From assembly GCA_028692875.1 (NCBI GenBank), contig JAQUWL010000015.1:1-53464 (forward strand): a DNA stretch of 53,464 bases. The letters are read 5' to 3'. This document shows positions 13,545 to 36,068 of this stretch, one piece after another. The position numbers and the translations under genes were made by a program. This stretch comes from Sulfurospirillaceae bacterium (GTDB taxonomy: Bacteria; Campylobacterota; Campylobacteria; Campylobacterales; Sulfurospirillaceae). Under the pieces are notes generated by a model, which had not been told where the DNA came from, did not search any database, and saw only the letters and a list, made by a program, of their open reading frames with translations. Every line of letters begins with the position of its first letter. Position 1 is the stretch's first letter.

Positions 13545-13560
13545 AAAAAGCTCCTTTTAG

Positions 13561-13617: not shown

Positions 13618-13625
13618 ACCAAAAT

Positions 13626-15138: not shown

Positions 15139-15151
15139 TTTTTTCCTTTTA

Positions 15152-15170
15152 CTATGCCTTTTGAGCATAT
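15152..15170. promoter_or_regulatory. CTATGC-N7-GCATAT palindrome: candidate ModE site upstream of fdhD-modE
   Basis: CTATGC (15152-15157), 7 bases, GCATAT (15165-15170), one mismatch from the perfect palindrome, 14 bases before the fdhD ATG. It would let the ModE-type protein control its own operon. Confidence 0.6.
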
Positions 15171-16125: not shown

Positions 16126-16139
16126 CACCGCTCCTTTGT

Positions 16140-16736
16140 TTATTTGGTGTAAGCTCTATCCCATCCATAAGGAGAGTTTGCACCCTTACCACGTGCGGAT
16201 ACACGAGCTCTATATATATTGGATATGGACTCTGCGTCACCTACAAGCAATGCTTTAGTAGCACACATTGCCGCACATACAGGAACTTTTCCCTCTGCGA
16301 TACGGTTTTGACCATAAAGATGTCGCTCTTCTTTTGAGTTTGTCTCCAATGGTCCGCCTGCACACATCGTACATTTATCCATAGCACCCTTAGCACCAAA
16401 AGCACCATCTCGTGGAAACTGTGGTGCGCCAAATGGACACGCATACAAGCAGTAACCACAGCCTATACATTTGTCTTTATCGTGAAGTACAATACCGTCT
16501 TCTCTGATATAAAAACAATCAACTGGGCAAACTTGCTCACATGGAGCGTCTGTACAGTGCATACATGCGATAGATGTTGAAAACTCTTTACCGGGAATCC
16601 CCTCATTAATCGTTACAACTTTTCTTCGGCTGATACCAACAGGCAATTCGTGAGCCTCTGCACAAGCAATAGAACAGCCATCGCATTCTATACATCTTGC
16701 CTCATCACAATAAAATTTCATTCTTGCGTATTCCAT
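16140..16736 (-). CDS. fdhB: formate dehydrogenase iron-sulfur subunit, copy 1
   Basis: 198 residues. Four [4Fe-4S] clusters are predicted from CDEARCIECDGCSIAC, CMHCTDAPCEQVCP, CIGCGYCLYACPFGAPQ and CTMCAGG with CAAMC near 160-170. It carries electrons from FdhA to FdhC. There is no C-terminal membrane anchor, unlike E. coli FdnH, so it probably docks on FdhC or is held by FdhA. AGGGGGAGCAG before the ATG is a strong ribosome binding site. It lies 9 bases after fdhA1 and 14 before fdhC1. Confidence 0.94.
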   Translation of the reverse strand: MEYARMKFYCDEARCIECDGCSIACAEAHELPVGISRRKVVTINEGIPGKEFSTSIACMHCTDAPCEQVCPVDCFYIREDGIVLHDKDKCIGCGYCLYACPFGAPQFPRDGAFGAKGAMDKCTMCAGGPLETNSKEERHLYGQNRIAEGKVPVCAAMCATKALLVGDAESISNIYRARVSARGKGANSPYGWDRAYTK

Positions 16737-16745
16737 CTGCTCCCC

Positions 16746-19601: not shown

Positions 19602-19621
19602 TTACTACGCCTCCTTTTTTC

Positions 19622-19822
19622 TTACATGGCAGACTTATAAAAGTCTTCCCACGCTTGAGTTTTCTTATAGTTAATCTCTTTTTTCTTCGATTTTCCTATA
19701 ACAACGCCATTGGAACTTTTTGAACCTTTAGCACCCGCTTGAGCACCGACAACACCTACGGCTGTAACGGCAACACCAGCGATTGCAGCTTTTTTAACAA
19801 AGCCACGTCTGCTTTCGTTCAT
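19622..19822 (-). CDS. formate dehydrogenase region TAT-target small protein, copy 1
   Basis: 66 residues with a twin-arginine signal (SRRGFVKKAAIAG) and a short mature part ending KKTQAWEDFYKSAM. Small TAT proteins of this kind occur just before Sec-FdhA genes in many Proteobacteria. They are thought to assist export or assembly; the mechanism is not known. It lies 20 bases before fdhA1 with a GGAGG ribosome binding site. A paralog is at 25482. Confidence 0.88.
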   Translation of the reverse strand: MNESRRGFVKKAAIAGVAVTAVGVVGAQAGAKGSKSSNGVVIGKSKKKEINYKKTQAWEDFYKSAM

Positions 19823-19858
19823 CTAGCACCTCCTTGCATAAATTAACCTCTTATCCCA

Positions 19859-19899
19859 AGAGATTGCCAAAGAAAATAGCTTTCCCTTTGGTAATCTCT
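19859..19899 (-). promoter_or_regulatory. long hairpin between the chaperone gene and the fdh1 structural genes
   Basis: AGAGATTGCCAAAG (19859-19872) pairs with CTTTGGTAATCTCT (19886-19899), 14 pairs including one G-U, with a 13-base loop. No T-run follows on the minus strand, so it looks more like an mRNA-processing or stabilising hairpin than a terminator. Cluster 2 has nothing like it. Confidence 0.5.
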
Positions 19900-19915
19900 A
19901 TCATAAATTTAAAGA

Positions 19916-20662
19916 TTATCTTGCTTTACGCTCCACAACATCCAACTCTTTGCCCGCCATCTTTTTGGCTTTGTTTTCTGCTCTTCTTCTAGCCTCAGCA
20001 GGAGATATTGGCTCTACAGGTTTTTGAACTCTTTTTTTTGCCTTTAGAGGTGGTTTTGTTACTTCAAAATAGAGGCGTTCAAATGTTATAAATGCATTTA
20101 AAACAACGGCAACTGATTTGTAAATTTTTGACATTTTGTGTTCATATACGTTGATAACAAATTCGTCAATAAATGGATTTATGATTTCGGCAAACATACA
20201 GTGTTGAAGATTTTCATACTCTTTTTGTCCATCAATAATAAGCTCAACAATCTCGTGCATAAAGGTAAAGATAAATCCGATAGAATCTTCGTTTTCTTTA
20301 AAATTCTGCTCATCTCTTCGGATGTGTGTTTTGCCTAAAAAGTTTTTGACTTCAACACGTTTTTTACCACTCTCCACACCTTCATCGTAGTAGGATGCGG
20401 AAGTCCTAACAACAGGAAAGGACGGATTATGAAAAATATCGTCATACTCTTGAATAAGCACCTCTTCGCCAAGCTCAAGAATATACTGTTTTATCTCTTT
20501 TAGTGCTTCGCCAGAGTTTTCATCCAAAGGATATTCTATCATCACATCAAGAGCATCTACGACACCGCTAAATCTATCTGCACGTGTGGAAAAAACAAAC
20601 ATCTTGCTCAAAAATCCATAGTATAGAGACCTTGCTTGATTTACAGATTCTTTATTTATCAC
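19916..20662 (-). CDS. TorD-family chaperone for formate dehydrogenase, copy 1
   Basis: 248 residues, mostly helical, with the family feature EYDDIFHNPSFPVVRTSASYY in its middle. TorD-like proteins bind the TAT signal and the apo form of molybdoenzymes until the cofactor is in. The Lys/Arg-rich tail (about 205-248) is absent from the second copy and could bind RNA, membrane or cofactor; that is a guess. The start is GTG with AAGGA before it. Its own upstream region (20663-20977) carries the likely fdh1 promoter and regulatory sites. Confidence 0.82.
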   Translation of the reverse strand: MINKESVNQARSLYYGFLSKMFVFSTRADRFSGVVDALDVMIEYPLDENSGEALKEIKQYILELGEEVLIQEYDDIFHNPSFPVVRTSASYYDEGVESGKKRVEVKNFLGKTHIRRDEQNFKENEDSIGFIFTFMHEIVELIIDGQKEYENLQHCMFAEIINPFIDEFVINVYEHKMSKIYKSVAVVLNAFITFERLYFEVTKPPLKAKKRVQKPVEPISPAEARRRAENKAKKMAGKELDVVERKAR

Positions 20663-20773
20663 ACAATTCCTTTTCTTGCTAGACTTAAAATAGAGTCAAT
20701 CTTCGTATACCATAAGAGAATATGCCCAAAACAAGAAGTTTAAAGGCTTATCTCTAGGGTTTTTATTCGTATA

Positions 20774-20789
20774 GTAAAACATTGTTTAC
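20774..20789. promoter_or_regulatory. GTAAAACATTGTTTAC inverted repeat upstream of fdh cluster 1
   Basis: GTAAA and TTTAC frame a 6-base centre, 112 bases before the chaperone start. A close relative lies at 29278-29293 and a looser one at 27495-27510. It may bind a second regulator of the fdh genes. Confidence 0.4.
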
Positions 20790-20872
20790 CAATATGTTAG
20801 AAAATTTATCATAGTTAAGCTTAGCTGGAAATTGGGTATTTGAAGTAGTATTAAAACTTAAATTTAACTTAA

Positions 20873-20891
20873 ATATGCAAATTAAGCATAT
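20873..20891. promoter_or_regulatory. perfect ATATGC-N7-GCATAT palindrome: candidate ModE site upstream of fdh cluster 1
   Basis: ATATGC (20873-20878), 7 bases, GCATAT (20886-20891). It lies in the 315-bp gap between fdhC2 and the chaperone of cluster 1, 211 bases before the chaperone start. The distance would suit activation better than simple repression. Confidence 0.6.
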
Positions 20892-20960: not shown

Positions 20961-21826
20961 TCCTTACATGTAAAGATTTACACTTTACCTTGCTCTTTTA
21001 GTTTTCTATACCAAGAGCTATGGAGGATTTTAACCTCTTCTTCTTCTTTGTAGCCTGTTAAAATACTATGAATAGCACCTTTGATGGCAAATATCGACAT
21101 ATAGATATGCACAAAAAAGAGTGCTACAACAGCAAATCCAACTACGTTATGTAGTATTGCTGAGACTCTAAGAAGGTCTATTTGAGAAAGTCCTGTGATG
21201 TTATTTAGCATTTCGATTTTAAAATCAAGGAAATACATCATAGCGCCTGTAACAATCATCAATACTCCTCCAAGAGTTGCTAACCAATACCATGTCTTTT
21301 GACCAGCATTAAACTTGCCAGCAGGAACAGGGTTTTTCACTTTTGAAAGGTATCCACCTACTATCATCAGCCATTTAATATCATCCCAGTGAAGGAACAT
21401 ATCTTTGACCCACATAACAAACATTGGGATAACAACGATAGCAAAAGGGATAGTAAAGATGCCATGTAGGTTTTTACATAGTCTTACAAATGTTCCGCCA
21501 CCGAAGAAGTCACCAAAAACAATCACAAAGCCTGTTGGAACTATCACGATAAAAGAGATGGCTGCTATTTGATGAACAACTCTATTGAACATATCAAATG
21601 CATAAACCTTCTTTCCTTCATGAGAAAATACTTTTGGACCAATAACCTTGTAATGCACAAAAAACACAAGTGGCACTAAAACAAGAATCGCCAAAAATAT
21701 CTTTCCAAAATAGTGATTTTGTAACATAGTAAAAAGAGCACCTAATTTTAAAGACTGCTCTTGTCCATATGACAAAATATTTGGAATCCGCATCTCACCC
21801 CAAATCTGGCTATCCGCAGCAAATGC
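20961..21826. repeat. 866-bp direct repeat, copy 2 (fdhC2 body and 3' flank)
   Basis: Matches 15209-16074 at a constant offset of 5752 bases; see that entry. Both copies are in the same orientation, so recombination between them would delete one fdh cluster. Confidence 0.85.
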
Positions 21827-21877
21827 ACCAACCATCGCCAGTCCAAAGACTAGCGATAGGATTACTATTTTTTTCAT
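20978..21877 (-). CDS. fdhC: formate dehydrogenase cytochrome b subunit (gamma), copy 2
   Basis: 299 residues; from AADSQIWGEMRI to the end it is identical to copy 1 at 15226. Only the signal peptide differs (MKKIVILSLVFGLAMVGAFA). It has the same membrane helices and heme histidines. It serves as quinone-reducing anchor for FdhA2-FdhB2 and, being identical, could be interchangeable with copy 1. It lies 16 bases after fdhB2 with a weak ribosome binding site (AAAAAGAGTAAGCT). Confidence 0.93.
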   Translation of the reverse strand: MKKIVILSLVFGLAMVGAFAADSQIWGEMRIPNILSYGQEQSLKLGALFTMLQNHYFGKIFLAILVLVPLVFFVHYKVIGPKVFSHEGKKVYAFDMFNRVVHQIAAISFIVIVPTGFVIVFGDFFGGGTFVRLCKNLHGIFTIPFAIVVIPMFVMWVKDMFLHWDDIKWLMIVGGYLSKVKNPVPAGKFNAGQKTWYWLATLGGVLMIVTGAMMYFLDFKIEMLNNITGLSQIDLLRVSAILHNVVGFAVVALFFVHIYMSIFAIKGAIHSILTGYKEEEEVKILHSSWYRKLKEQGKV

Positions 21878-21893
21878 AGCTTACTCTTTTTGT

Positions 21894-22496
21894 TTATTTG
21901 TAAGCCGCATTCCACATTGCCGATTCACTTGCACCACGACCACTTCCACGTCTTAGAACGCGCTCAGTGATAATTTTTGAAACGGATGTGGCATCGCCAG
22001 CAAGCAAAGCTTTAGTTGAACACATTGCCGCACATGCTGGAACTTTTCCCTCTGCAATACGGTTTTGACCATAGAGTTGATACTCTTTCTCGCTATGTGT
22101 ATCCTCTGGACCACCTGCACAATATGTACATTTATCCATTGCGCCTTTGGAGCCAAAAACTCCTTGTCGTGGAAACTGCGGTGCCCCAAATGGACACGCA
22201 TACAAGCAGTAACCACAGCCTATACATTTGTCTTTATCGTGAAGCACGATGCCATCAGCTCTGATATAAAAACAATCAACTGGGCAAACTTGCTCACATG
22301 GAGCGTCTGAACAGTGCTGACATGCGATAGAGAGATAACTCTCTTGTCCTATCACTCCCTCATTAAGAGTAATCACTCGTCGGCGATTAACGCCCACTGG
22401 AAGATGATGTGCCTCTTTGCAAGCCACTTCGCAGCCGTGGCAATCAATACATCTACTCTCGTCACAGTAAAATCTCATACTTGTATTTGGTGTCAT
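21894..22496 (-). CDS. fdhB: formate dehydrogenase iron-sulfur subunit, copy 2
   Basis: 200 residues, the same four-cluster plan as copy 1: CDESRCIDCHGCEVAC, CQHCSDAPCEQVCP, CIGCGYCLYACPFGAPQ and CTYCAGG with CAAMC. The central half is nearly identical to copy 1, while the ends and the loop around 125-150 have diverged. It passes electrons from FdhA2 to FdhC2 and is part of the fdhA2-fdhB2-fdhC2 operon. Confidence 0.94.
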   Translation of the reverse strand: MTPNTSMRFYCDESRCIDCHGCEVACKEAHHLPVGVNRRRVITLNEGVIGQESYLSIACQHCSDAPCEQVCPVDCFYIRADGIVLHDKDKCIGCGYCLYACPFGAPQFPRQGVFGSKGAMDKCTYCAGGPEDTHSEKEYQLYGQNRIAEGKVPACAAMCSTKALLAGDATSVSKIITERVLRRGSGRGASESAMWNAAYK

Positions 22497-22507
22497 TGTC
22501 CGCCCCC

Positions 22508-25321
22508 TTACGCTTTCTCAATACGGCAGAGCGTACATTTAGTCTCTGGCGTAGTGGTTACAATATCAAAGCCGTAGCTGATAATGGTATTAGATCCCTC
22601 TCCAACAGCATATGGCGCCAAGCCTTTTGGGTATCGACCCAAAATAGACTCTCCTTGATAAATACCTGAGTAAGTGTACGGCATAGAAGCAGTATCATAT
22701 GCAACACGTGTACTAAACTTACATTTTACTTTAATACGAAGACCTGTTGTTCCATAAATCCATACCATGTCGCCATCCCTTAAGCCTAAATCATGTCCTT
22801 TATCTGGATGGATATCGAGCAATGGCTCAGGTGCTAGCTCTGCAAGATAAATCGATGACCTACTTTCCGTTCCAGTCCCCAAATGCTCAACATAACGACC
22901 AGTTAGAAGTTGCATTGGGTACTCTTTCGCCCATACTTTTTCGTTTTGACGGCTCTCATACTTGATGTTAGCTCGGTAATGATTATCCTTGTCTTTATAA
23001 GTTGGATATTGAGCAATCAAATCAGGACGTGGAGAGTGTAATGGCTCACGATGTTTCGGAACTTTATCGACCCATTCCCACACAACAGTTCTAGCTTTTC
23101 CATTGCCATACGGACACAATCCTGCCTGCATTGCTTTTTCAACAAGGATGTTGCTAGTATCAGTTGACCACGATTTGCCTTTGACTTTCTCTTTCTCTTC
23201 GTCGCTCAATTTAATACCCGTAATCTCTTCGACATTTGCGGCAGTTATATGGTCATGACCCTTTGCACCACTTTTGGTTCCTTTAAGTTCAACCTCAGAG
23301 AGCAAACTTGTGCCATCTGGAGTTTTAGGCGTCCAACGAACTCTAAAGCCCATACCACCTTGCGAAACAGGAATACTATCATCATACATTACAGGAGTTC
23401 CAGGATGTTTTTCACTCCAGCATGGCCAAGGAAGACTATAAAACTCATTCTTAAATGGTCCGCTTCCTTTTAAAGTTTTTGGATCAAACATATGCCAATT
23501 TTCGCTTTGTGCCTTAAGACGCTCTGGCGTAATACCCTGCAAACCTATACTTCTGATAGCCTGTGTGTACTCACGTGTCGCATCTTCTGGCCACGTAAAG
23601 CCACCTTTTCCGTCGCCCATTGCTCGAACAAGCTCATCGTAATATCCAAGTTTTTTTGCCAACTGGAAAAGAATCTCATGGTCAGTTTTGCACTCGTACA
23701 TAGGCTCAACTACTTTATTTCGCCATTGTGTTCCACGGTTGGTTGCCGTTACGGTACCACTGGTTTCGATTTGGCTGGCCGCTGGGAGCATGAAAAGGTT
23801 ATTTTTCATATCAGCAATCGCACCCATATCGTTAAAATAAGGGTCAACAATAACACAAAGCTCCAATTTTTCCATCGCTTTTTTTGTCGTATCAGTCAAA
23901 GAGATAGACGAAAGTCCGCTACCGATATTCATCATACCTCGAATCATCGTTCCGGCATTGTTTTTTGCATTTTGCTCTTCCAAAACGCCAAAACGCCATG
24001 TCGCAACACTAAAACCGTTTTTGTGAAGCAGATCTGGGGATTTAAAGCGTGATTGCATCCATGCATAATCTACTTTCCAGTTTGAGCAGAAATATTTCCA
24101 AGCACCCTCAGCCAAACCATAATAGCCAGGTAAGCTGTGTGCAAGGTTTGACATATCGCTCGCACCTTGAACGTTATCGTGACCTCGAAGAATATTACAT
24201 CCGCCACCTGGTTTTCCAATGTTACCAAGTAAAAGTTGGAGAATAACAGTCTGACGTGTATTTCCCGTACCTACAGAGTGTTGTGTTAAGCCTTGATTGT
24301 AGATGAGTGTTGCAGGTTTTGCACGTGCCATCATATTGGTAATTTCAATAAGTTGATTGGCTGGAACGCCGGTAATGTTTTCAACAACTTCTGGAGTATA
24401 TTGTTCTGCTTCTTTGGCAGTCTCTTCAAAACCATAAACACGATTTTTGACATATTCTTTATCGTAAAGGTCGTTTTTAATAATATGTCGAATCATACCG
24501 TACATAAACGCTATATCTGTACCAGGGCGGATTCTAGCAAACATATCTGCCTTTGAAGCAGTTCGACTAAAATATGGATCAACCACAATTATCTTAGCGC
24601 CAAGCTCTTTAGCACGTAAGATATGCACCATACCAACTGGATGAGCAACCGCTGGGTTAGCTCCGATAATAAAAATGCACTTAGAATTTTGAATATCACC
24701 TAAGTGATTTGTCATGCCACCATAACCTAATGTATTCGCCACACCGGCGACTGTAGGGGCATGTCAGATTCGAGCGATTGTGTCTATATTGTTTGTTCCA
24801 AACATTGCCGCAAATTTGCGGATATAATAAGACTGTTCTCCAGAAACTTTTGATGATCCTAAGAACATCATGCTATCAGGTCCGTACTTCTCGCGAAGTG
24901 TTTTCATTTTATTGCCGATTTTAGTGAAGGCGTCATCCCAACTGATGCGTTTCCATTCACCATTTACTCGCTCCATTGGATAGCGAAGACGCTTCTCTCC
25001 ACGGACACGGTCAATCATATCGGCACCCTTACAACAATGTCCTCCCAAACTAATAGGATGGTCTGTTGCTGGTTCTTGTCGAACCCAAACACCATTTACA
25101 ACCTCTGCTTCAATACCACATCCAACAGAACAATAGGTACAAATCGTTCGTACTTTTTTAGAATTTGGGTATTTCTCTTTTAGCTCCTGCGCATTTGCAG
25201 GTCTGAGCACCTTTGATTCATCTGCACCCAGTGCACTGGTGGCACCAGCTACACCAGCGATCGCAGTCATTTTTAGAAATTTTCTTCTATTAAGACCACG
25301 AGCATTCAATGCTTCGCTCAT
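22508..25321 (-). CDS. fdhA: formate dehydrogenase catalytic subunit, selenoprotein, copy 2
   Basis: 937 residues with the TGA at 24764-24766 read as Sec186. TAT signal NRRKFLKMTAIAG, cluster motif CTYCSVGC plus GGHCCKG, and active site ARI-U-HAPTVAGVANTLGYG. Compared with copy 1 the fold and length match, but the sequence has diverged clearly through most of the protein, so the duplication of the catalytic genes is old. The two enzymes may differ in metal, direction (formate oxidation or CO2 reduction) or conditions of use. The ribosome binding site is AAAGGAAAAAT. A 160-base gap separates it from the small TAT gene, against 20 bases in cluster 1. Confidence 0.95.
24736..24766 (-). promoter_or_regulatory. 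Sec codon (UGA) and candidate SECIS stem-loop of fdhA2
   Basis: UGA at 24766-24764, a 13-base gap, then UCGCC-GGUGU-GGCGA (24750-24736). The stem-loop is identical to that of fdhA1, although the bases between it and the UGA differ. Confidence 0.65.
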
Positions 25322-25481
25322 ATTTTTCCTTTCTTCATTTTAAATCTTGACACGCATTCAAAGCAAAGCTTCTCATGCTACGCTAACGCTGAGTTTTTCT
25401 CGGCGAAAAGCCCTCACACCCTTGGTGCTCTTTTGGCATTTGTATCACATTATCTGAGGCAAAATTGCCCTGACCAATGTC
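25322..25481 (-). other. 160-base spacer between the small TAT gene and fdhA2
   Basis: No gene seen. It contains a hairpin CGCTGAG-TTTTT-CTCGGCG (25387-25405, one wobble pair) and GC-richer words unlike the AT-rich spacers elsewhere. It may be a leftover insertion or an mRNA element that sets FdhA2 level. Confidence 0.35.
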
Positions 25482-25691
25482 TTAAAACGCCCGTTTATAA
25501 TAGTTTTCCCAAGTGGCAGTTTTTTGATACAAAATCTCCACTTTTTTTGATTTGCCCTTAACAGTCTGTCCAACTGGTTTTGTTCCAGCCGCCAAAGCAC
25601 TAGATGCCACTATGCCAGTAGCTGCTGCAACCACAGTCGTTTTACCAGCATTGACCAAGAAGCGTCTTCTTGAACTCTCTTTCGTCTCCAT
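25482..25691 (-). CDS. formate dehydrogenase region TAT-target small protein, copy 2
   Basis: 69 residues; twin-arginine motif SRRRFLVNAGKT, then a small mature part with KGKSKKVEILYQKTATWENYYKRAF. The ending resembles copy 1 (KKTQAWEDFYKSAM), so this tail, not the signal, is the conserved functional part. GGAGG precedes the ATG. It lies 29 bases after the chaperone gene. Confidence 0.87.
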   Translation of the reverse strand: METKESSRRRFLVNAGKTTVVAAATGIVASSALAAGTKPVGQTVKGKSKKVEILYQKTATWENYYKRAF

Positions 25692-25720
25692 GGTTTACCT
25701 CCTTTCATAGATTTTAATTC

Positions 25721-26308
25721 TTATTTAATATACCCTTGTTCAAAATCAATAAAACTATCTAAAATAACTGCTATATCTTTGTAAAGATTTGCTTTTGGAT
25801 TTGAGTCAATCTCGTCAATAAACTGTTTTACAAAAGGCAAAATATATAGTTTGAAAATCTCTTTTTCAATAGATTGAAATTTTTTCTCTTCAATGCAATA
25901 ACGCATAACCAAAAATAAAAAACCAAAATTGTCTTCAGTCTCTTTGAAAATATCACCATTAGCACGAATTGGAAGCTCTTTAATCGTCTGCCTAATATCC
26001 ACCAAAATATCGCCGTTCAAGCAGCCTTGCTTAAAATGTGAAATATAAGGCAATACCACATCGCCGGTTGCTGGAATACAAAAAAGATTGTCAAACTCAT
26101 CAACAAGTTTTTCAAAACCGCCATCAGCTTTTATCTCAAAATTCAAAATAGCAAAACTTTTTTCCACATCTTCATCCAACGGTGCTGTGCCCAAGCTATC
26201 AAGTTGTGTTTTTATAAGCTCCTTTCTTCCCCTTAAAAGGTCGCCCAAAAACAATCCCGCAAAAAAATCATAAAAAACAGCACGAGCTTGATCGATACCT
26301 TTATCCAT
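25721..26308 (-). CDS. TorD-family chaperone for formate dehydrogenase, copy 2
   Basis: 195 residues, all helical, with VDEFDNLFCIPATGDVVLPY, the counterpart of the family loop in copy 1, and no basic tail. It probably guards the TAT signal and cofactor insertion of FdhA2. The ATG lies 3 bases after the stop of the ferredoxin-like gene and the AAGGATAG ribosome binding site overlaps that stop, so they are co-translated. Confidence 0.8.
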   Translation of the reverse strand: MDKGIDQARAVFYDFFAGLFLGDLLRGRKELIKTQLDSLGTAPLDEDVEKSFAILNFEIKADGGFEKLVDEFDNLFCIPATGDVVLPYISHFKQGCLNGDILVDIRQTIKELPIRANGDIFKETEDNFGFLFLVMRYCIEEKKFQSIEKEIFKLYILPFVKQFIDEIDSNPKANLYKDIAVILDSFIDFEQGYIK

Positions 26309-26311
26309 AAT

Positions 26312-27457
26312 CTATCCTTGTTTCTCATTTAAATTTGTCTGTATATCTTTACATGTAGAGGTCAAAAAGGCTTGTAGTTTCTCTTTGTTTTGGTAGACAT
26401 CAACCGAGCTAGAAAAAGTTTTTGTGGTCTGCGGGGCATAAAAAAGGATATTTTGTCCACCTTGCTCTAAAATAACTTGAAGATGCGGATAAGAGATAAA
26501 ATGCTCCGTTTCCACCACAAGCGGGATATATCCATCTGGAATCTCAATCCCGTCTAGCTTATTTAGCTCAGCCTCAGCAACAATAAGAGTTTTTCTATCT
26601 TTGCACACTTTCGCCACTTCTGCAAATGCTTTTTGCGAAAAAGGGGCAAAATCAAGTGCGCCCTTTGGACAAACTCCCACGCATTTGCCACACGAAATAC
26701 AATCAAGCGGAGAAAAAAGTAGCTCTTTGGTCGCATCATCTTTTAAAATACCAGAACTTGGGCAGATATCCACACAAACACTACAATTTGAGCCTTCACT
26801 GTGATGATATGAACATAGCTCACTCTCATATAAAATCACATTTTTATACTCATAATGTCCGATGCGATTGCGAATACGCATAAGTAAAGCATCCCTATCC
26901 ATAGGCTCTTTAACGCATTCAACTCCTCTTTGTTTGCATTTTTCACTAGCAAAATCAAACATCAATAGCTGAGCACACACGCACTCTGTCTCTATCTCTT
27001 CAGCTTTTTCTTCATCTTCGGTTATCTTCATAAATCTAGCTTTAAAGGAACCAAACCCTCCCTCAAGAGAAATAAGTTTTGATGGCAAAATATGCACAAC
27101 ATCAAAAAGTTGTTCTGCTTTTTGAACAAACGCAAAAACCTCTTCGCCATCGCCAATAACCATAACGCTACGCCCAATAACAAGATTGTGGCTCTCTTTT
27201 GGAGAGTATTTGTGGCGAATAAAACGCATCTCGTAGAGTTTTTTAAGCACCTCTTTTTGCTCTTTTGGCTGTGCTTTTGTATGTTTTACGTACCAATTAA
27301 CCTCTGGGGCAAAAACGAGGCTTTGATGTATCTCGTTTGAAATAAGTGCATCTGCGTAGTTGGCACCCTCTGGGTCAAGCACCATAATGCCCTCGCCATT
27401 TTCAATAGGAGCACCTATTTCAGGATCGCTAACAAAAAGATATCTAATTTGACTCAT
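26312..27457 (-). CDS. 4Fe-4S ferredoxin-like protein, first gene of the fdh2 operon
   Basis: 381 residues. Residues 1-190 form a domain I do not recognise, with FAPEVNWYVKHTKA, which resembles YAPEINFYLENS in the protein at 27587. Two 4Fe-4S motifs lie around 215-270: CSVCVDICPSSGIL and CISCGKCVGVCPKGALDF. No signal peptide or membrane helix, so it is cytoplasmic. Being in the operon with the chaperone and Fdh2, it may pass electrons to an Fdh maturation step or couple a cytoplasmic donor to the membrane enzyme. Two ModE-like palindromes lie just upstream. Confidence 0.82.
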   Translation of the reverse strand: MSQIRYLFVSDPEIGAPIENGEGIMVLDPEGANYADALISNEIHQSLVFAPEVNWYVKHTKAQPKEQKEVLKKLYEMRFIRHKYSPKESHNLVIGRSVMVIGDGEEVFAFVQKAEQLFDVVHILPSKLISLEGGFGSFKARFMKITEDEEKAEEIETECVCAQLLMFDFASEKCKQRGVECVKEPMDRDALLMRIRNRIGHYEYKNVILYESELCSYHHSEGSNCSVCVDICPSSGILKDDATKELLFSPLDCISCGKCVGVCPKGALDFAPFSQKAFAEVAKVCKDRKTLIVAEAELNKLDGIEIPDGYIPLVVETEHFISYPHLQVILEQGGQNILFYAPQTTKTFSSSVDVYQNKEKLQAFLTSTCKDIQTNLNEKQG

Positions 27458-27586: not shown

Positions 27587-29254
27587 CTAATTTTTTTCCA
27601 TATGCGCTTTAAACATCACTTTAGGCTTACAATCCGCACAACAATAAAGCGTGCGTTTTTTAACCTCATCATTTCCAAAAATAGATCCCATTTGCTGAGA
27701 TATCTTCTCGATAGCCTTGGTTGTTGCAAAAGGTTTGCCACACTCTACACATGTAAATAGTGTATCTTTTGCCATAATGCGTTGCGAAAACCAACTAGGC
27801 TTCAAGTGGATTTCATCTTTTATAACTTTTAGACAATCTTTCTCTGGACATGTAACTTCACAATATCCACAGTTTGTACAGATAGAAGCATTGAAACGCA
27901 AAGAGTTATCTTCGGGATGTGCGGTCAGCGCTCTTACATTACAAGCACCGACACAACTCAAGCAAAGTGTACATGTAGCATCGTTTATAACGATATCACC
28001 ATAATGTATATGCTCGCCCGTCTTTATGACTCCCAAATCTTCGTTGCCAACCAAATGTGCTAGCCTTGCTGAAAAAATCTCTCGCTTTTTCAATCCATCT
28101 TCGTTGATGCCGTACAAACACTCAGCAAAGCTCTCTGCTTTTGTCAAGGCATCTTCTAATTCAGCAACATCTTTACAGACAAAAATAGCCTTTTTGTGGT
28201 ATTTTCTCTCAAAAATTTCATTGATGATGCGAATAGCATCGCCTGTACCTTTAGATATAAAGTCACTATAAAAAATAACGCTTTTACCACTAGTTTGCAA
28301 CAAGTTCATCAAGTGTGCTTCGTGAAGGTATTTCTCGCCCTCTATCGCCAAAGGCAATACATCTTCTAGGAGTTGTACATGTAAAGATTCTATATCCATC
28401 TTTTGAGGAATTATGAGTGCAACTTTGTTTTTATAAAAAGGTGTTATCTTGCTAAATACAGCTCTAGGCATCTGCGTATAATCAAGTGCGCCACTAGGGC
28501 AAATGCTTATGCAACCACCGCAACCGTGACAGTCTATATGTGAAAAAACTAGTTGTCTTTTTTCATCATTTTTTAAAATCGCCACAGTTGGACAGACCTC
28601 GGCACATTTTCCACATATCTCATGACGTCTTTCGTGGTATTGACATATAAAAGGGTCATAGCTTATAAAGTTTTTGTAACGGTATACACCTTTAGAGTTT
28701 TTGACTTTTCCGATCGCCTTGTCAAGCCCCAATACAGCTGGGTCATATACACCGCTTTGCTTTGTGGCAAACAAAGGGGCATTCCACCACAATATCTGGT
28801 CAGTTTCAACGTCATAATGCTCATCGTTTTTAATAAGACTTACATGTAAGCCTCCGATATGTCCTTCAACATCTTTTATCATGCTAGGGCTCAGCACGAT
28901 GCACACTAAGCCATCATCGCTAAACTCTTTTTTAAGCTCCTCGCACGCTTCGTCTGTTACTATAAGTAACTTATCTCCAACCTCTTGTTCAAAATCCATA
29001 TCTTGTTCGCCATCAAAAATTGTAGCTCGAACGTCATACAAGGCTTTAACTGCATGTATCTTTTTTGAGAGAGAGTCTTGTGAGTTTTCAAGATAGAAGT
29101 TTATCTCTGGAGCATACAAAACGCTCGAAGTGGTTTTAACATTTGAGACTATAAATGTAGCATCCGGAGCATTTAGTGAATCAACAACTTCAATAGAGTC
29201 ATCCAGTGGAAACTCCAAAGGACTTTGCGTGTAAAACATATATTCTTTTTGCAT
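27587..29254 (-). CDS. polyferredoxin-like protein with four 4Fe-4S motifs and a zinc-ribbon end
   Basis: 555 residues. The first ~330 match the plan of the protein at 26312: an unknown N-terminal domain, then CGKCAEVCPTVAIL and CHGCGGCISICPSGALDY. A further ferredoxin pair follows near 430-470 (CTLCLSCVGACNVRAL, CTNCGYCEVTCPEKDC) and a C-terminal zinc-ribbon-like part (CVECGKPF ... CCADCKP). There is no signal peptide. It is probably a cytoplasmic electron carrier or scaffold for formate dehydrogenase or its maturation; function unproven. It is transcribed alone, from a promoter with TACAAT at 29298-29303. Confidence 0.82.
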   Translation of the reverse strand: MQKEYMFYTQSPLEFPLDDSIEVVDSLNAPDATFIVSNVKTTSSVLYAPEINFYLENSQDSLSKKIHAVKALYDVRATIFDGEQDMDFEQEVGDKLLIVTDEACEELKKEFSDDGLVCIVLSPSMIKDVEGHIGGLHVSLIKNDEHYDVETDQILWWNAPLFATKQSGVYDPAVLGLDKAIGKVKNSKGVYRYKNFISYDPFICQYHERRHEICGKCAEVCPTVAILKNDEKRQLVFSHIDCHGCGGCISICPSGALDYTQMPRAVFSKITPFYKNKVALIIPQKMDIESLHVQLLEDVLPLAIEGEKYLHEAHLMNLLQTSGKSVIFYSDFISKGTGDAIRIINEIFERKYHKKAIFVCKDVAELEDALTKAESFAECLYGINEDGLKKREIFSARLAHLVGNEDLGVIKTGEHIHYGDIVINDATCTLCLSCVGACNVRALTAHPEDNSLRFNASICTNCGYCEVTCPEKDCLKVIKDEIHLKPSWFSQRIMAKDTLFTCVECGKPFATTKAIEKISQQMGSIFGNDEVKKRTLYCCADCKPKVMFKAHMEKN

Positions 29255-29277
29255 TTTTAGAGCCTATTGCGTAAAAG

Positions 29278-29303
29278 GTAAACGATTGCTTACCAGCATT
29301 GTA
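29278..29303 (-). promoter_or_regulatory. promoter and GTAAACGATTGCTTAC repeat upstream of the polyferredoxin gene
   Basis: TACAAT (29298-29303) on the minus strand is followed at once by GGTAAGCAATCGTTTACC, an inverted repeat between the -10 box and the ATG at 29254. A protein bound there would block transcription. Confidence 0.45.
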
Positions 29304-29390
29304 AATTGATTTATATTAAAACGAACTTAACCAAAAAATAGCCTCTAATGCAACTATTTATTGTATATGCAAGGCTTACTTGTTTTATTG

Positions 29391-29443: not shown

Positions 29444-30613
29444 TTGGTAAAAGCTCCTTTTCTAAAAATAACTTTTATTATATCTTTTATAATACTTGCT
29501 TTGGTTGTTGCTTTTTTTGTGATAGCGTCCAAAAACCACTCACATCAAACCATAAAACTAGGTGCATCTTTGCCACTAAGTAGTATAAATCAAGACCTAG
29601 GTCAAGAAGTTGCCATCGGAGCAAACACATATTTTCAGCACATCAATGACACAAAAGGCGGAATTGCAAATAAAAAAATAGATTTTATCTACTATGACGA
29701 CAGATACGAGCCAGAAAATACCATCGCAAATACTAAAATGCTTCTCAAAGAGGACGTGTTTGCCTTTTTTGGTTTTGTTGGCACGCCCACAGTAAAAAGA
29801 ATTCTTCCGCTTATCGCAAAAACAAACATCCCTTTTATCGCACCTTATACGGGTGCGTCTTTTTTAAGAAATGACAATTTGCCAAACATTGTTAACTTTA
29901 GAGCGTCTTACAAGCAAGAGATAGAAAATATTGTTGATTATCTAGTTAAACAAAAGGGAGTTAAAAATATCGCTATCTTTTATCAAAATGACGACTATGG
30001 CGAGGAGGGTTACATAGCACTTGATGAGGCTATGAAAAAACGCAACATGCACATTTACGCAGAAGGAACCTACAAGCGCAATACTCTTTCAATAAAACAA
30101 GCCCTATACGAGCTAGAACTAGCTCGCCCTGATGCGATTATACTAGTTGGAGCATACAAACCAACGGCTCATTTCATTGACAAAGCTAGAAAAAACATAT
30201 TAAAAGATGTTTTGTTTTGTCCCATATCTTTTGTAAATGCAGATGCCTTGATGAGTGAGCTAAAAGGTGATGGAAAAAATATCATCTTTTCTCAAACCGT
30301 TCCCTCCTACAGCGACACCTCCCTTGATGAAGTTAAAGAGTACCTATGGTTGCTACAAAAATACTACCCTGAGCACAAACCAACACTAGCCTCATTTGAG
30401 TCTTTTTTGGCGACAAAAACAGTGGTATTAGCACTAGAAAAAACAAAACACTCACTAACAAGGGAAAACTTTTTAAATAGCCTTAAAACCTTAAACAAAG
30501 AGACTCTAGCATCGGTAAATATACAATATAAAAATTCTCAGCTACTTAACACAACATATCTTTCAATTTACGAAAACGGCACATTTTCCATAATAAAAAA
30601 AGAGGTCAAATAA
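29444..30613 (+). CDS. membrane-anchored periplasmic binding protein (LivJ/Peripla_BP_6 family), probable sensor partner
   Basis: About 389 residues. One N-terminal membrane helix (about 10-30), no lipobox and no obvious cleavage site, so it is probably anchored to the inner membrane. The rest is a two-lobed binding protein: IKLGASLPLSS, GANTYFQHINDTKGGI, DDRYEPENT, FFGFVGTP, FIAPYTGAS and YQNDDYGEEGY match the amino-acid/amide binding family. No transporter gene is near. It is followed after 1 base by a histidine kinase, so it more likely presents a ligand to the kinase than feeds uptake. Start: TTG 29444, 9 bases after AAGGA; the TTG at 29435 touches the ribosome binding site and cannot be used. 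The ligand is unknown. Confidence 0.82.
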   Translation: MVKAPFLKITFIISFIILALVVAFFVIASKNHSHQTIKLGASLPLSSINQDLGQEVAIGANTYFQHINDTKGGIANKKIDFIYYDDRYEPENTIANTKMLLKEDVFAFFGFVGTPTVKRILPLIAKTNIPFIAPYTGASFLRNDNLPNIVNFRASYKQEIENIVDYLVKQKGVKNIAIFYQNDDYGEEGYIALDEAMKKRNMHIYAEGTYKRNTLSIKQALYELELARPDAIILVGAYKPTAHFIDKARKNILKDVLFCPISFVNADALMSELKGDGKNIIFSQTVPSYSDTSLDEVKEYLWLLQKYYPEHKPTLASFESFLATKTVVLALEKTKHSLTRENFLNSLKTLNKETLASVNIQYKNSQLLNTTYLSIYENGTFSIIKKEVK

Positions 30614-30614
30614 G

Positions 30615-32216
30615 ATGACCTTTTATAATTTTTTAAATAAAACACTAAATAAAATAAATTTCAACAGCAAAACAAAAATACTCATAGCAATTATCGCTGG
30701 AGGCATGATAACAATAGGTTTTTTGATGTTCATCTCCATCTTTGCCATAAAATATGACTATGAGACCCTTTTCAAAAAACACACCCAGCCTCAAGTAGAG
30801 CTTGAAGAGATACGAGATATCTACCATGTAAATATAAATGAGACACTTTTTGACTTGCGAAAAAGCCAAATCAGCGAAGAAGATGCACTAGAGGTCATCG
30901 AATTGGCTCGGCAAATCATCCAAAAACAGTGGAAAAATTATATCAATACCTCAATGGAGCCTATCGACACGCTACCAAAATTTGCAAACCAATGGCTTAG
31001 CTTCTTTTTGTTTGTTGATGCTCCACCAAAACAAAATCTTTTTCAAAAAAGCATAGCGGACAAAATCAAAAACAAAATGCAGAGAATTGATGAAGAGATT
31101 TTGATGATTGTAGAGCTTCTAAAGCAAGGCAAAACAATCAACACAGACAAACATATCGAAAACGTAACACTTGAAATAAACTCTATAAATATCTATTTTG
31201 CAAGTCTGATTAACACACACTTAAAGATGGCTATCTCGCAAAAAGAGGCAAATGACGCCTTGTTTAGAACCAGTATTTACATGTTGGTTTTACTTATTAG
31301 CCTCGTCTTTTTTCTAAGTATCGTAATCTCTCTTCTTCTTATAAATCACTTTAGAGAACTACACGACTCGCTAGAGCATAAGGTTGAAGAAAAAACAATA
31401 GAGCTAACTTTGCTTAACACATCTTTGGAAAAACGGATAAAAAAAGAGGTTGAAAATAGTCGCAAAAAAGACAACATCATGTTCCAACAAGCAAGACTTG
31501 CAAGCTTAGGAGAGATGTTGCAAAACATTGCGCATCAATGGCGACAACCATTAGGTACTTTAAGTATGATTGTTCAGAGTTTTCAAACCAAATTTCTAGC
31601 AGGTAAACTAACTAAAGAGTTGATTGAAAAAAATGTGGACGATGCTATGCTTTTGGCACAAAATATGTCAGATACACTTGATGATTTTAGAAATTTTTTC
31701 AACCCAAATAAGACAAAAAATCAATTTTCAATCTTAAAAGTTATCGAAAAAGCAACCGACCTATCCAAGTACCAACTTGAAAAAAACGATATCTTACTTC
31801 ACTCTTTTGTTCCACAAGATACTATTATTTACGGGTTTAAAAACGAGCTTATTCATGTTATTTTAAACCTTATAAATAACTCCAAAGATGCACTTAGCAC
31901 AAAAACTGAGCTTAAAAATAAAAAGATATGGATTACCACAAAACTTAGCAAAAGCCGTGTTCTTATAACGGTTATCGACAACGGAGGCGGAGTTGAACCT
32001 GCGTTGTTGTCTAAAATTTTCGACCCATATTTTACAACCAAACACCAAAGCATAGGAACTGGAATCGGGCTTTACATGTCAAAACAGATTATTGAAAAAC
32101 ATATGCACGGTAAGATATACTGCAAAAACATAAAACACAACATGGAAGATGAGACACTCTATCAATGTGCCTCATTTACGATATCCATCCCAATCAAAGA
32201 GAGAAAAGAGAGATGA
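30615..32216 (+). CDS. sensor histidine kinase with periplasmic helical sensor domain
   Basis: 533 residues. Membrane helices at about 23-45 and 217-240 enclose a ~170-residue helical periplasmic domain. A coiled coil (about 245-300) leads to the H-box LGEMLQNIAHQWRQPL (His near 307), then an ATPase domain with NLINNSKDAL (N-box), DNGGGV (G1), FDPYFTTK (F-box) and GTGIGLYMSK (G2). All kinase residues are present and no HAMP motif is evident. It probably reads the ligand state of the binding protein encoded just upstream and phosphorylates the next gene's regulator. Its stop overlaps the regulator's ATG by 4 bases. Confidence 0.9.
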   Translation: MTFYNFLNKTLNKINFNSKTKILIAIIAGGMITIGFLMFISIFAIKYDYETLFKKHTQPQVELEEIRDIYHVNINETLFDLRKSQISEEDALEVIELARQIIQKQWKNYINTSMEPIDTLPKFANQWLSFFLFVDAPPKQNLFQKSIADKIKNKMQRIDEEILMIVELLKQGKTINTDKHIENVTLEINSINIYFASLINTHLKMAISQKEANDALFRTSIYMLVLLISLVFFLSIVISLLLINHFRELHDSLEHKVEEKTIELTLLNTSLEKRIKKEVENSRKKDNIMFQQARLASLGEMLQNIAHQWRQPLGTLSMIVQSFQTKFLAGKLTKELIEKNVDDAMLLAQNMSDTLDDFRNFFNPNKTKNQFSILKVIEKATDLSKYQLEKNDILLHSFVPQDTIIYGFKNELIHVILNLINNSKDALSTKTELKNKKIWITTKLSKSRVLITVIDNGGGVEPALLSKIFDPYFTTKHQSIGTGIGLYMSKQIIEKHMHGKIYCKNIKHNMEDETLYQCASFTISIPIKERKER

Positions 32217-32887
32217 CAAAGAAACAACGAAACCTAGATATCCTAAATCAATTTAGCATTTTATACATTGAGGACGAGCCAGAGTTGCTCAAACATACCA
32301 AAACCGTTTTGGAAGATTTTGTAAAAAATATATACGCCGTAGAATCGATAGAACTGGCTTTAGAGGCTATCAAAAAACACCATATTGACGTTATTGTTTC
32401 GGATATTTTGCTTAAAAATGAAAACGGTATTGAGTTTATCAGGCTATTGAAAAATGAGTACAAGATAAACATACCAACGATACTTATGACTGCACATACC
32501 GACACAGAGTATCTTTTAGATGCGATAAAACTCAAAGTGCAAGACTACATCGTCAAGCCTGTAAATATCAAAGATTTGCTAAATGCTTTGCATGATATTT
32601 TACTTCCAAAGGCACAGCAAAAAGAGATAGAAAAATTCTACCGCATCATCAAAACCATCTCCGCAGTAACTGATAGCAAACAGATTGAGCTTATACGTTT
32701 TATCATCAAAAATCTTGACGATGAAAATATGCTCAACTGCTCTTATAGTGACATTATGGCGAGAATCGATATAAGCAAACCAACTGTTATCAAAGTATTT
32801 AAACAACTTATAGACCTTGAAATACTCACAAAAATCCAAAATGGCAAATACCTTTTCAATGAAAACCGCCTACCTTCTCCGGAGTAA
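32213..32887 (+). CDS. response regulator, receiver domain plus winged helix-turn-helix
   Basis: 224 residues from ATG 32213, which overlaps the kinase stop (ATGA); the longer frame to 32165 lies inside the kinase gene. Receiver domain (about 10-125) with IEDEP acidic pair, VIVSDILLKNENG (phospho-Asp), LMTAHT and IVKPVN (Lys). The C-terminal part (about 140-220) has CSYSDIMARIDISKPTVIKVF and LEILTKIQNGKYLF, a winged helix of Crp/GntR-like type. It should control genes in answer to the periplasmic signal. It stands 2 bases before selA, so selAB and the fdh genes are natural targets, which is inference. Confidence 0.88.
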   Translation: MTKKQRNLDILNQFSILYIEDEPELLKHTKTVLEDFVKNIYAVESIELALEAIKKHHIDVIVSDILLKNENGIEFIRLLKNEYKINIPTILMTAHTDTEYLLDAIKLKVQDYIVKPVNIKDLLNALHDILLPKAQQKEIEKFYRIIKTISAVTDSKQIELIRFIIKNLDDENMLNCSYSDIMARIDISKPTVIKVFKQLIDLEILTKIQNGKYLFNENRLPSPE

Positions 32888-32889
32888 CT

Positions 32890-34236
32890 ATGCAAAATAT
32901 ACTCAAAAAAATACCCAAAATAGACAAAATCATCAATCATTCACTTCTTGATGGGCTTTGCAAAAAACTTCTCACAAAGATAGCCAAACAGAAGATAGAG
33001 ATATTGCGAGAAGATGTGCTTTCAGGCAAAGTCTGCGATGTTGATGAGTCTTCAATAGCACAAGAGATAAAAAAAGCCTACGAAAACGTGCTTGAGCCAT
33101 CTTTAAAACCTTTGATAAATGCCACTGGAGTTATCTTGCATACCAACATGGGACGCAGTCTTGTCTCTAAAACTCTTTTACAGCGAGCTAGTAAAGTTAT
33201 ATGCAACTACTCAAATCTTGAGTATGACCTTGATAAAGGAAAAAGAGGCGAGCGATATGAACATGTAAGCAACCATCTAAAACAACTCTTACATGTAGAG
33301 GATGTTTTAGTGGTAAACAACAACGCTTCGGCAGTATTTTTGATTTTAAATACTTTTGCAAAACGCAAAGAAGTTGTTGTTTCACGAGGAGAGTTAGTCG
33401 AAATCGGCGGAAGTTTTCGCATCCCTGAAGTGATGAAACAAAGTGGAGCAAAACTGCAAGAGGTGGGAGCTACCAATAAAACCAAACTTAGTGACTACAA
33501 AGAGGCGATAAGCCCAAAAACTGCCATGCTTATGAAAGTTCATCAGTCCAACTTTTCCATCGAAGGCTTTAGTGAAAGCGTGGATTTTAAGCAGATTCAA
33601 ACACTTGCAAAGGCATATGGGTTGATTGATTATTTTGATGTGGGAAGTGGCTACGTGGGCGAACTTCCGTACAATCTAGGAAACAAAGAGCCATCTTTAG
33701 AGCAGATACTCTCTTGCGACCCATCTTTGATAAGCTTTAGTGGTGACAAACTTTTTGGAAGTGTTCAAGCTGGCATAATCGCTGGTAAAAAAGAGCTTAT
33801 CGCTAGACTTAAGAAAAACCAACTTTTAAGAATGCTTAGAGTCGATAAAATCACACTCGCACTTTTAGAAGAGAGCATAAAGGCTTATTTGCAAGAGGAG
33901 TATGAGCTTATTCCAACTTTATGGATGTTGCATCAAAGCGTTGAAAAATTGGAGCAAAGAGCCTTACATGTAAGAAGTTTTGTGGGCGAAAATATATGCG
34001 ATGTTGTCCATAGCCAGACCTACATGGGAGGCGGAACTTTGCCAAACCGCACCTTCGCAACAATAGCCCTACATGTAAAGGGCAAAGCTGTCAATTTGGA
34101 GCGTCAATTTAGAAAACATGGCATTATAGGTCGCATAGAAAATGATAAATTTTTGCTAGATTTTAGAAGTATTTTGCCAGAGTTTGATGAAGATTTAGGA
34201 AAAACAATCAAAATTATTGCAAAAGAGTTTGAATGA
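32890..34236 (+). CDS. selA: L-seryl-tRNA(Sec) selenium transferase
   Basis: 448 residues, usual length. A PLP enzyme that converts seryl-tRNA(Sec) to selenocysteinyl-tRNA using selenophosphate from SelD. Visible: the N-terminal tRNA-binding helical part, LINATGVILHTNMGRSLVS, VNNNASAVFLIL, SRGELVEIGGSFRIP, HQSNFSIEGF, FDVGSGY and the PLP lysine in FSGDKLFGSVQAGI. CGGAG precedes the ATG, which comes 2 bases after the response regulator stop; selB overlaps its end by 4 bases. Substrate tRNA is the selC gene at 4671. Confidence 0.96.
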   Translation: MQNILKKIPKIDKIINHSLLDGLCKKLLTKIAKQKIEILREDVLSGKVCDVDESSIAQEIKKAYENVLEPSLKPLINATGVILHTNMGRSLVSKTLLQRASKVICNYSNLEYDLDKGKRGERYEHVSNHLKQLLHVEDVLVVNNNASAVFLILNTFAKRKEVVVSRGELVEIGGSFRIPEVMKQSGAKLQEVGATNKTKLSDYKEAISPKTAMLMKVHQSNFSIEGFSESVDFKQIQTLAKAYGLIDYFDVGSGYVGELPYNLGNKEPSLEQILSCDPSLISFSGDKLFGSVQAGIIAGKKELIARLKKNQLLRMLRVDKITLALLEESIKAYLQEEYELIPTLWMLHQSVEKLEQRALHVRSFVGENICDVVHSQTYMGGGTLPNRTFATIALHVKGKAVNLERQFRKHGIIGRIENDKFLLDFRSILPEFDEDLGKTIKIIAKEFE

Positions 34237-36068
34237 AACATGTTATCGTAGGAACTTCTGGACATATTGACCACGGCAAAACCGCCCTTATTAAAGCTCT
34301 CACTGGATTTGAGGGCGACACACTAGAAGAGGAGAAAAAAAGAGGCATCACGATAAATCTTAGCTTTTCAAATCTTGCAAGTGAATCAAAAAACATCGCT
34401 TTTATAGATGTTCCAGGGCACGAAAAACTCGTTAAAAATATGATAGCAGGAGCCTTTGGATTTGATGCTGCACTACTAGTCGTAGATGCAAATGAGGGCA
34501 TAATGCCCCAAACAAAAGAACACTTACACATCTTAAATCTCCTACATGTAGGCTCCCTTGTTGTTGCACTTACAAAATGCGACCTTGCGGATATTGAAAC
34601 AATTCAAACAAGAGAGAAAGAGATAAAAGAGTATGTTGAAAAACTCCCATACCTAAATATAAAAGCCACTGTTCCAGTAACTATTTTCGACCAAAACAGT
34701 ATAAACAATCTTAAAAAAACACTCTTTTCACTAGAGCCAAAAGAGAGAAAAAACGACAAGCTTTTTCGCTACTATGTAGATAGGTCATTTTCACTCGCAG
34801 GCGCTGGAGCCATTGTAACTGGCACGATACTAGATGGACAACTAAGCGTAGGCGATAAAATCTTTGCACCAGAGTACGAAAGAGAATTTACGGTACGAAA
34901 CCTTCAAGTGCATGACCTAGATACAGCTTTAGCGACCACTTCGCAACGTGTCGCCATCAACCTTCAAGGCAACTCCAAAGAGCTTTTAGAAAAAGGCGCG
35001 CTACTAAGCAAAAAAGGTTTTTTGAGAGGTTTTGAATGTGTAGATGCATGGATAGAAACGATTGAAGGTCAATCACTAAAACACAACTCCAATGTCATTC
35101 TTTACGTAGGAACTAAACAGTGTGAAGCTAAGATTTTGGGGCTTGAGAGCGAAGAAGATATCAAAAATGGCTTTGTAAAACTTCAATTTAACAAAAAACT
35201 TTTTTTGACCTACGATGAGCCGTTTATCATCTCCAAATCAGGTCGCATAGCAGGTGGCGGACGCATTTTAATTCCCATAGATGACCCTATTAAAAAAAGA
35301 GTAAAGCTGGAACTTTTGCACTACCTAAAAGATAGGGATTTTAAAAACGCTTTTAGACTCCTAGTTTTTATGCACAAAAGAGGCTTTGGCATCATATCTT
35401 CTAACCAGCGTTTCCGACTCAATCATGACGAGGCAATAGCCATTGCGAGAACTCTTGAAGATGTTTTTTTGGACGAAAAAGCTCTTGTTGTTTATCCTCT
35501 TTTTTCAAAAGATGAGCTACAAAAGAGTATTTTGGCAATATATGCAAAAAACAAATATGCTCTTTTATCCCCAAACTCCCTTGCTCTTAAAACAAAATGG
35601 GCAAGCCATGCACTTATCGAGGATGTTTTACAATCGCTTTGTGAAAAAGGCGTTTTGAGTTTGGATAATGGCGTCTACAAAAACGCCTCTGTTGAGCTTG
35701 GCAATATCGAAGAACATGTACAAACACAGATTTTTGCCATTTTAAAAGATGGTGGTTTATCGCCGGATGCCCCTTACAATATCTATGACGATTTAGATAT
35801 TGACCGAAAAATGGGCGATGATGCCTTAAAAAATCTAACCAAATCCAAAAAAGTAGTGCGTCTTGCCCACAATCTTTTTATCGAAGCAACTGCTTTAACT
35901 AGAGTGCTTGTTTTGATGCGAGAAATCATTAAAAATGAGGGATACGTGGATGTTCAATCGCTCAAAAAGCATCTGGAGTTAAGTCGAAAATATCTTATAG
36001 CGTATTTGGATTATCTGGATGCTTTTGATGACATAGTAAAAGAGGGCGACAAGCGAAAACTACGCTAA
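34233..36068 (+). CDS. selB: selenocysteine-specific elongation factor SelB
   Basis: 611 residues, usual length. It carries Sec-tRNA to the ribosome at UGA codons marked by a SECIS hairpin. GTPase motifs GHIDHGKTA (G1), DVPGHEKLVKNM (G3) and TKCD (G4) lie in the first 140 residues. EF-Tu-like domains 2 and 3 and a domain 4 follow, and the last ~250 residues hold the winged helices that bind mRNA. Targets in this window are selD, fdhA1 and fdhA2. Its end overlaps convergently with the EAL-HDOD gene by 9 bases. Confidence 0.96.
   Translation: MKHVIVGTSGHIDHGKTALIKALTGFEGDTLEEEKKRGITINLSFSNLASESKNIAFIDVPGHEKLVKNMIAGAFGFDAALLVVDANEGIMPQTKEHLHILNLLHVGSLVVALTKCDLADIETIQTREKEIKEYVEKLPYLNIKATVPVTIFDQNSINNLKKTLFSLEPKERKNDKLFRYYVDRSFSLAGAGAIVTGTILDGQLSVGDKIFAPEYEREFTVRNLQVHDLDTALATTSQRVAINLQGNSKELLEKGALLSKKGFLRGFECVDAWIETIEGQSLKHNSNVILYVGTKQCEAKILGLESEEDIKNGFVKLQFNKKLFLTYDEPFIISKSGRIAGGGRILIPIDDPIKKRVKLELLHYLKDRDFKNAFRLLVFMHKRGFGIISSNQRFRLNHDEAIAIARTLEDVFLDEKALVVYPLFSKDELQKSILAIYAKNKYALLSPNSLALKTKWASHALIEDVLQSLCEKGVLSLDNGVYKNASVELGNIEEHVQTQIFAILKDGGLSPDAPYNIYDDLDIDRKMGDDALKNLTKSKKVVRLAHNLFIEATALTRVLVLMREIIKNEGYVDVQSLKKHLELSRKYLIAYLDYLDAFDDIVKEGDKRKLR

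Follow-up and report, generated by a model that had tools for sequence, protein, structure and literature searches.

Among the described systems closest to the locus reported here, TorT-TorS-TorR, which senses TMAO, consists of a type-I periplasmic binding protein, a kinase, and a regulator that are encoded together and control the molybdoenzyme operon next door; its kinase, TorS, is of the hybrid phosphorelay type, and its regulator, TorR, is of the OmpR type. Formate is a main electron donor of Campylobacterota. In the glucose system GltB-GtrS-GltR of P. aeruginosa, the periplasmic binding protein activates the kinase (PMC7927077), and in CuaD-CuaSR of Ruminiclostridium a dedicated solute-binding protein is encoded beside a two-component pair for signaling (PMC10384115). 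For LysR_Se/HrsM, the regulator gene adjoins selA/selB (PMC5322559). FdhTU of Campylobacter jejuni, which belongs to the same phylum as the DNA studied here, affects the selenium-dependent formate dehydrogenase (FDH), and the passages of a 2019 review drawn on here name only the FdhTU proteins, which act post-transcriptionally, for FDH control in this species (PMC6682613). For S. multivorans, a constitutive Fdh2 has been described, with Fdh1 and Fdh3 serving as back-up (PMC4585668).

We analyzed a window of 53,464 nucleotides, the whole stretch of DNA considered here, which is one contig (C19) of a 1.94-Mb, 44-contig genome of a Sulfurospirillaceae bacterium. Gene identities in the window were taken from open reading frames and Pfam/NCBIfam domain searches (Table 1). 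The genes for a membrane-anchored binding protein (PBP), a histidine kinase (HK), a response regulator (RR), SelA, and SelB follow one another with gaps of +1, -4, +2, and -4, exactly, to the base, as a first-pass annotation of this DNA had stated. The TTG start of the PBP at 29444 (M-V-K) agrees with the N-terminus of its relatives, and the protein has a single N-terminal TM helix and no lipobox Cys. A periplasmic domain, the H-box His307, and the ATPase domain are all present in the HK, as are the receiver Asp64 and a predicted DNA-binding output domain, which matches RepL (PF05732), in the RR. No ABC permease or ATPase genes were found beside the PBP, and across the loci compared the binding protein gene constantly adjoins the kinase gene, without transporter genes. 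The earlier suggestion that an anchored PBP with no transporter and with the kinase next to it forms a three-part sensor is supported by these sequence features.

The five genes are probably cotranscribed. We found no terminator-like sites on the + strand at the RR-selA and selA-selB junctions, and a promoter scan gave promoter-like matches that were no commoner than in shuffles, including hexamers at chance frequency inside the RR gene. A promoter and terminator of its own before selA, which the annotation had named among the findings that would refute its reading, were thus looked for and, as far as the sequence tells, are absent. One genome of the window's family (G005, locus L086) has 816 bases between selA and selB, unlike the other genomes of the family.

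Table 1. Features of the window (coordinates in the window) and of loci compared with it
Feature	Position	Strand	Remarks
PBP, membrane-anchored type-I periplasmic binding protein	29444..30613	+	Peripla_BP_6, 5.9e-45; start TTG
HK, sensor histidine kinase	30615..32216	+	HATPase_c; two TM helices; H-box His307
RR, response regulator	32213..32887	+	Response_reg + RepL-like winged helix output domain; Asp64
selA	32890..34236	+	TIGR00474, 5.5e-158
selB, Sec-specific elongation factor	34233..36068	+	TIGR00475, 6.3e-88
fd2, polyferredoxin, first gene of divergent fdh operon	27587..29254	-	domain search; starts 190 bp from PBP
fd1, torD-like chaperone, small Tat protein (25482-25691), fdhA1B1C1	20978..27457	-	fdhA1 TGA at codon 186
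Second fdh operon torD2, fdhA2, fdhB2, fdhC2	15226..20662	-	fdhA2 TGA at codon 187
fdhD, ModE-like regulator, tungstate ABC transporter (cofactor supply for FDH)	10850..15168	-	domain search
selD + yedF	7156..8777	-	selD full frame 7156-8190
tRNA-Sec	4670..4766	+	RF01852, 51.7 bits
Candidate RR operator GGTAAACGATTGCTTACC at fd2 promoter	29277..29294	.	1 mismatch to GGTAAA-N6-TTTACC; conserved in relatives' fd2-PBP region
Second candidate RR operator AGTAAAACATTGTTTACC upstream of torD2-fdhA2B2C2	20773..20790	.	1 mismatch
HP1043/CosR-type direct repeat GTTAAG-TTCGT-TTTAAT, fd2 -35 region	29315..29331	-	10/12 to TTTAAG-N5-TTTAAG
HP1043/CosR-type repeat TTTAAGTTAAATTTAAG upstream of second fdh operon	20857..20873	-	12/12; same in L196
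Paralogous cassette examples	L106 3375-7751, L107 8372-12707, L184, L286		

The locus resembles TorT-TorS-TorR in that the PBP, kinase, and regulator genes lie together and adjoin a molybdoenzyme operon, but its kinase is plain, its output domain resembles RepL, and its operon includes selAB. A domain search of the HK found only HisKA-like and HATPase_c domains and no TorS-type receiver or HPt domains, and the RR carries a RepL-like instead of an OmpR-type output. GltB also serves a transporter, whereas no transporter adjoins the PBP of the window; CuaD-CuaSR is a Gram-positive sugar system made of other protein families; and LysR_Se and HrsM are cytoplasmic one-component LysR proteins with no periplasmic sensor. 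The window shares yedF (FdhU) with FdhTU, but FdhTU, as portrayed in the passages cited above, concerns post-transcriptional selenium supply and is not a sensor-regulator system. The layout had been put forward as undescribed. This stands insofar as we found no descriptions of the PBP-HK-RR unit (here called the cassette), its link to fdh or selAB, or the operator in the open-access literature searched, but a binding protein with a kinase and a regulator is a known kind of sensor.

Taken as a whole, the window forms a large island in which FDH, Mo/W, and selenium genes lie together. Both fdhA1 and fdhA2 have an in-frame TGA at the active-site codon, and sel genes are present in the same genome, which marks both enzymes as selenoprotein FDHs. 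The two complete gene sets lie in tandem (15226-25321), and their fdhC proteins are near-identical by eye, which suggests duplication or gene conversion. SelD is likely a selenoprotein itself, with a frame from 8190 on the - strand that reads through a TGA at codon 17. A phage-type integrase gene and two phage-family ORFs lie within a few kilobases of the tRNA-Sec gene (148-4766), and a HipA/HipB-like pair (9166-10753) lies between yedF and the tungstate transporter. We counted 25 copies of the palindrome TACATGTA in the window (e.g., at 33290, 33965, 34070, and 34543) against about 0.95 expected from a second-order model; it is a highly iterated palindrome with many copies within genes.

We compared the locus with those of named relatives, i.e., Sulfurospirillum and other Campylobacterales, counting the named loci plus the window. 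Order-wide and in several families, fd2 lies divergently beside the PBP in 53 of the 63 informative loci, namely those with that side of the PBP readable, and it is not adjacent to the PBP in the other 10. selA directly follows the RR in 34 of 67 loci and lies further downstream in 8 more; the other 25 retain fdh although no selA can be reached downstream. When the three cassette proteins were concatenated for a tree, the direct selA link appeared in three clades and the fd2 link throughout. Among 150 genomes sampled evenly across the order, 53 had fd2 and 32 had a PBP at E ≤ 1e-60, in most cases immediately beside fd2 and divergent from it; in families f11 and f14, fd2 occurs and the PBP does not. 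From these comparisons, the constant partner of PBP-HK-RR across the order is the divergent polyferredoxin-torD-fdhABC operon, with selAB as an addition in some lineages. The first-pass annotation had taken selAB for the primary partner, which is not supported, since the cassette tracks the selenoprotein fdh even where selAB is kilobases off or elsewhere. We therefore read the locus as a three-part sensor that is dedicated to selenoprotein formate dehydrogenase and whose operon has taken in selAB, and we give this reading a probability of roughly 0.7. Counting against this reading, G043 has the cassette beside moaA, with neither fd2 nor selA detected. At L100 2884-7182 (same record as L181), in a MAG in which neither selA nor fd2 was detected, the cassette directly follows moaA. 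PBPs of the cassette type also precede a kinase in other phyla, in one gammaproteobacterial and one Nitrospira MAG (L187 and L188), so the PBP-kinase pair is an old unit.

Pattern searches, made with no weight matrix, pointed to a candidate operator, as GGTAAA-N6-TTTACC is present in the fd2-PBP region of nearly all genomes of the window's family examined. Allowing up to one mismatch, it was found at the fd2 promoter in 55 of the 61 intergenic regions linked to a cassette and, allowing up to two, in all 60 of the named ones, versus none at one mismatch in 12 fd2 upstream regions from cassette-less genomes, the best of which was a two-mismatch match 231 bp away. When annotated, 17 of 21 exact matches in the family lay at fd2/PBP (8) or before the gene for a 2-hydroxyglutaryl-CoA dehydratase D-like protein of the double-cubane type (HGD-D), which occurs with a BadF-type activase (9); all six exact matches in cassette-less genomes, which lie outside the family, were within genes. 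The palindrome also stands before fdh operons away from the cassette, at 20773 in the window, in G002 (L196), where the site precedes the same torD2-fdhA2B2C2-type operon, and in G005 (L200), where the fd2-promoter arrangement recurs. Read by eye, the promoters give no consistent sign of control by position: at fd2 the palindrome overlaps the predicted start, a repressor-like position, whereas at HGD-D promoters it is found upstream of the -10 at a distance of 21-22 or 33 nt, two spacings that differ by roughly a helical turn, which is activator-like. The window genome has an HGD-D gene with GGTAAAAACTTTTTACC (spacer 5) upstream. ModE was considered as the binder of the palindrome and is probably not; ModE-like CGTTATAT...ATATAACG stretches, located by eye, lie elsewhere in several of the intergenic regions. 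Such ModE-box-like repeats occur between the palindrome and the PBP in the Sulfurospirillum-like loci L070, L072, L077, and L083, and by eye they are absent from the window.

A paralogous PBP-HK-RR in the same genomes, kept over the window's family, shares the order of the three proteins, but it is followed by a peptidyl-prolyl isomerase gene, glnB, and amtB, and its PBP has 35-42% identity to that of the cassette. Its own control region has a homologous palindrome, TTAGTAAA-N6-TTTACTAA, with A/T rather than G/C as outer bases. Of 20 paralogue promoters, 12 have an exact core GTAAA-N6-TTTAC and 18 have it within one mismatch, with a spacer of 6 only; shuffled promoters reached one mismatch in 4.7%, and the 20 are not independent, many of the genomes being close relatives. 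Because two homologous regulators each have a variant of the palindrome in their own control region, the RR is its likely binder, for which the comparative evidence is good.

There is also an 11-bp direct repeat in the -35 region of the fd2 promoters. Reading TTAA-N6-CTTAA on the + strand, it is found in 38 of 61 cassette loci, in five of five from family f16, and in none of 12 cassette-less ones; none of the other spacings was enriched. The extended repeat has nine exact matches in the window's family, all at fd2 promoters. We considered it as the RR's own box on these counts and dropped it, as it matches the HP1043 motif TTTAAG-N5-TTTAAG (PMC5253667). This repeat lies upstream of the -10 at the window's fdh promoters, as in HP1043/CosR targets, with perfect copies at the window's second fdh promoter and in four of the five f16 genomes. 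The orphan regulator HP1043/CosR is therefore the likelier binder of the -35 repeat. In a rival account, the palindrome is not the RR site, either because the RR uses the repeat after all or because CosR/HP1043 binds the repeat and another factor the palindrome, the cassette being merely a neighbor of fdh. The five f16 genomes fit such an account, as they have the cassette beside fd2, the repeat, and a very similar RR recognition helix, with no palindrome, and so does the distribution of the repeat. The palindrome variant in the promoters of the paralogous cassettes argues otherwise, and a RepL-like output, not being of the OmpR type, would suit a palindrome better than tandem repeats; we thus regard this account as unlikely.

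The link to selAB is close where it exists. All 27 genomes of the window's family with readable sequence have selA next after the RR, with gaps of -38 to +12 (ORF starts chosen mechanically), and a genome of another family (G045) shows this order too. The gene order, whose conservation the annotation had proposed to check, is thus kept in the family and in two other clades, and conservation over about 30 genomes rules out chance and misassembly. Three family genomes (G008, G017, and G028) have neither selA nor a PBP of the cassette type, the PBP remaining in G028 being the glnB-linked paralogue, and the cassette of Arcobacter-like loci often has selD-selA-selB 2-7 kb further downstream. These observations would suit a sensor whose primary role is to control selenoprotein capacity, acting chiefly on selAB through autoregulation in response to formate, selenium, or another signal, as would the HGD-D and activase genes noted near selenium genes elsewhere (PMC5322559; PMC10418091). 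Against it stand the 25 loci that keep fdh without selA in reach, G044, in which the cassette adjoins fdh and selAB is about 350 kb away, and the candidate operators, which are at fdh promoters, also in trans. We consider it quite improbable, and of the earlier claim that the sensor is tied to the Sec incorporation factors, it is the joining, keeping, and joint absence of selAB that holds, while the main link and the candidate operators are at fdh. Sec versus Cys in FdhA was tried as a means of telling selenium from formate sensing and separates nothing, as all the cassette-adjacent FdhA sequences that could be read in Campylobacterales carry TGA. An ordinary neighborhood, in which selenium and FDH genes simply cluster as in this island, selA is served by a promoter inside the RR gene such as the chance-frequency hexamers there, and the sensor does something unrelated, is very unlikely given that the order and overlaps persist over the 27 family genomes and other clades and that the palindrome tracks the cassette.

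For a dedicated FDH sensor, we propose that a periplasmic ligand bound by the anchored PBP would set the activity of the HK, and that an RR dimer would then act on GGTAAA-N6-TTTACC, both at the promoter of the divergent fdh operon and, in trans, at second fdh operons and at the gene of the HGD-D/activase enzyme. Since the RR operon ends with selA and selB in the window's family, production of the Sec-decoding factors would accompany that of the sensor; a response of their level to the signal would depend on autoregulation, which is plausible by analogy with the paralogue. With such a response, how far the cell can decode UGA as Sec would be governed by a signal from outside. The fullest form, in which one RR sets selenoprotein fdh transcription, SelA/SelB supply, and HGD-D/activase, and the sensor reads formate or a related small compound, is tentative and rather unlikely. 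In the window's group, formate use and selenoprotein production appear to be coupled by a single regulator operon, and for FDH control in Campylobacterota the locus supplies candidates for both sensor and operator, with a few putative targets.

The AlphaFold model of the PBP (pLDDT 92) resembles type-I binding proteins. Its nearest solved structure, 4kv7 (30% identity), is only a possible Leu/Ile/Val binder, and the next nearest are binders of Leu/Ile/Val, hydroxybenzoates, and urea; no ligand could be assigned by homology. Formate is an attractive ligand because the formate dehydrogenase works in the periplasm, according to the review passages used here (PMC6682613), but the glnB-linked paralogue uses the same PBP type.

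The HGD-D genes have a further feature in their 5′ leaders (L251-L271 and L275), where, about 85-95 nt before the ATG, a conserved GCTGTTRGTCTAAGGCTTAGACATACATGAA...TTTACATGTAA...CACAGCA follows the predicted start. This element had no match in Rfam up to E = 1 and is possibly an unlisted structured RNA. Single sequences are predicted to adopt a three-way-junction-like fold, part of which is supported by RNAalifold on a plain alignment, and the hairpin GTCTAA-GGC-TTAGAC shows paired changes at three positions.
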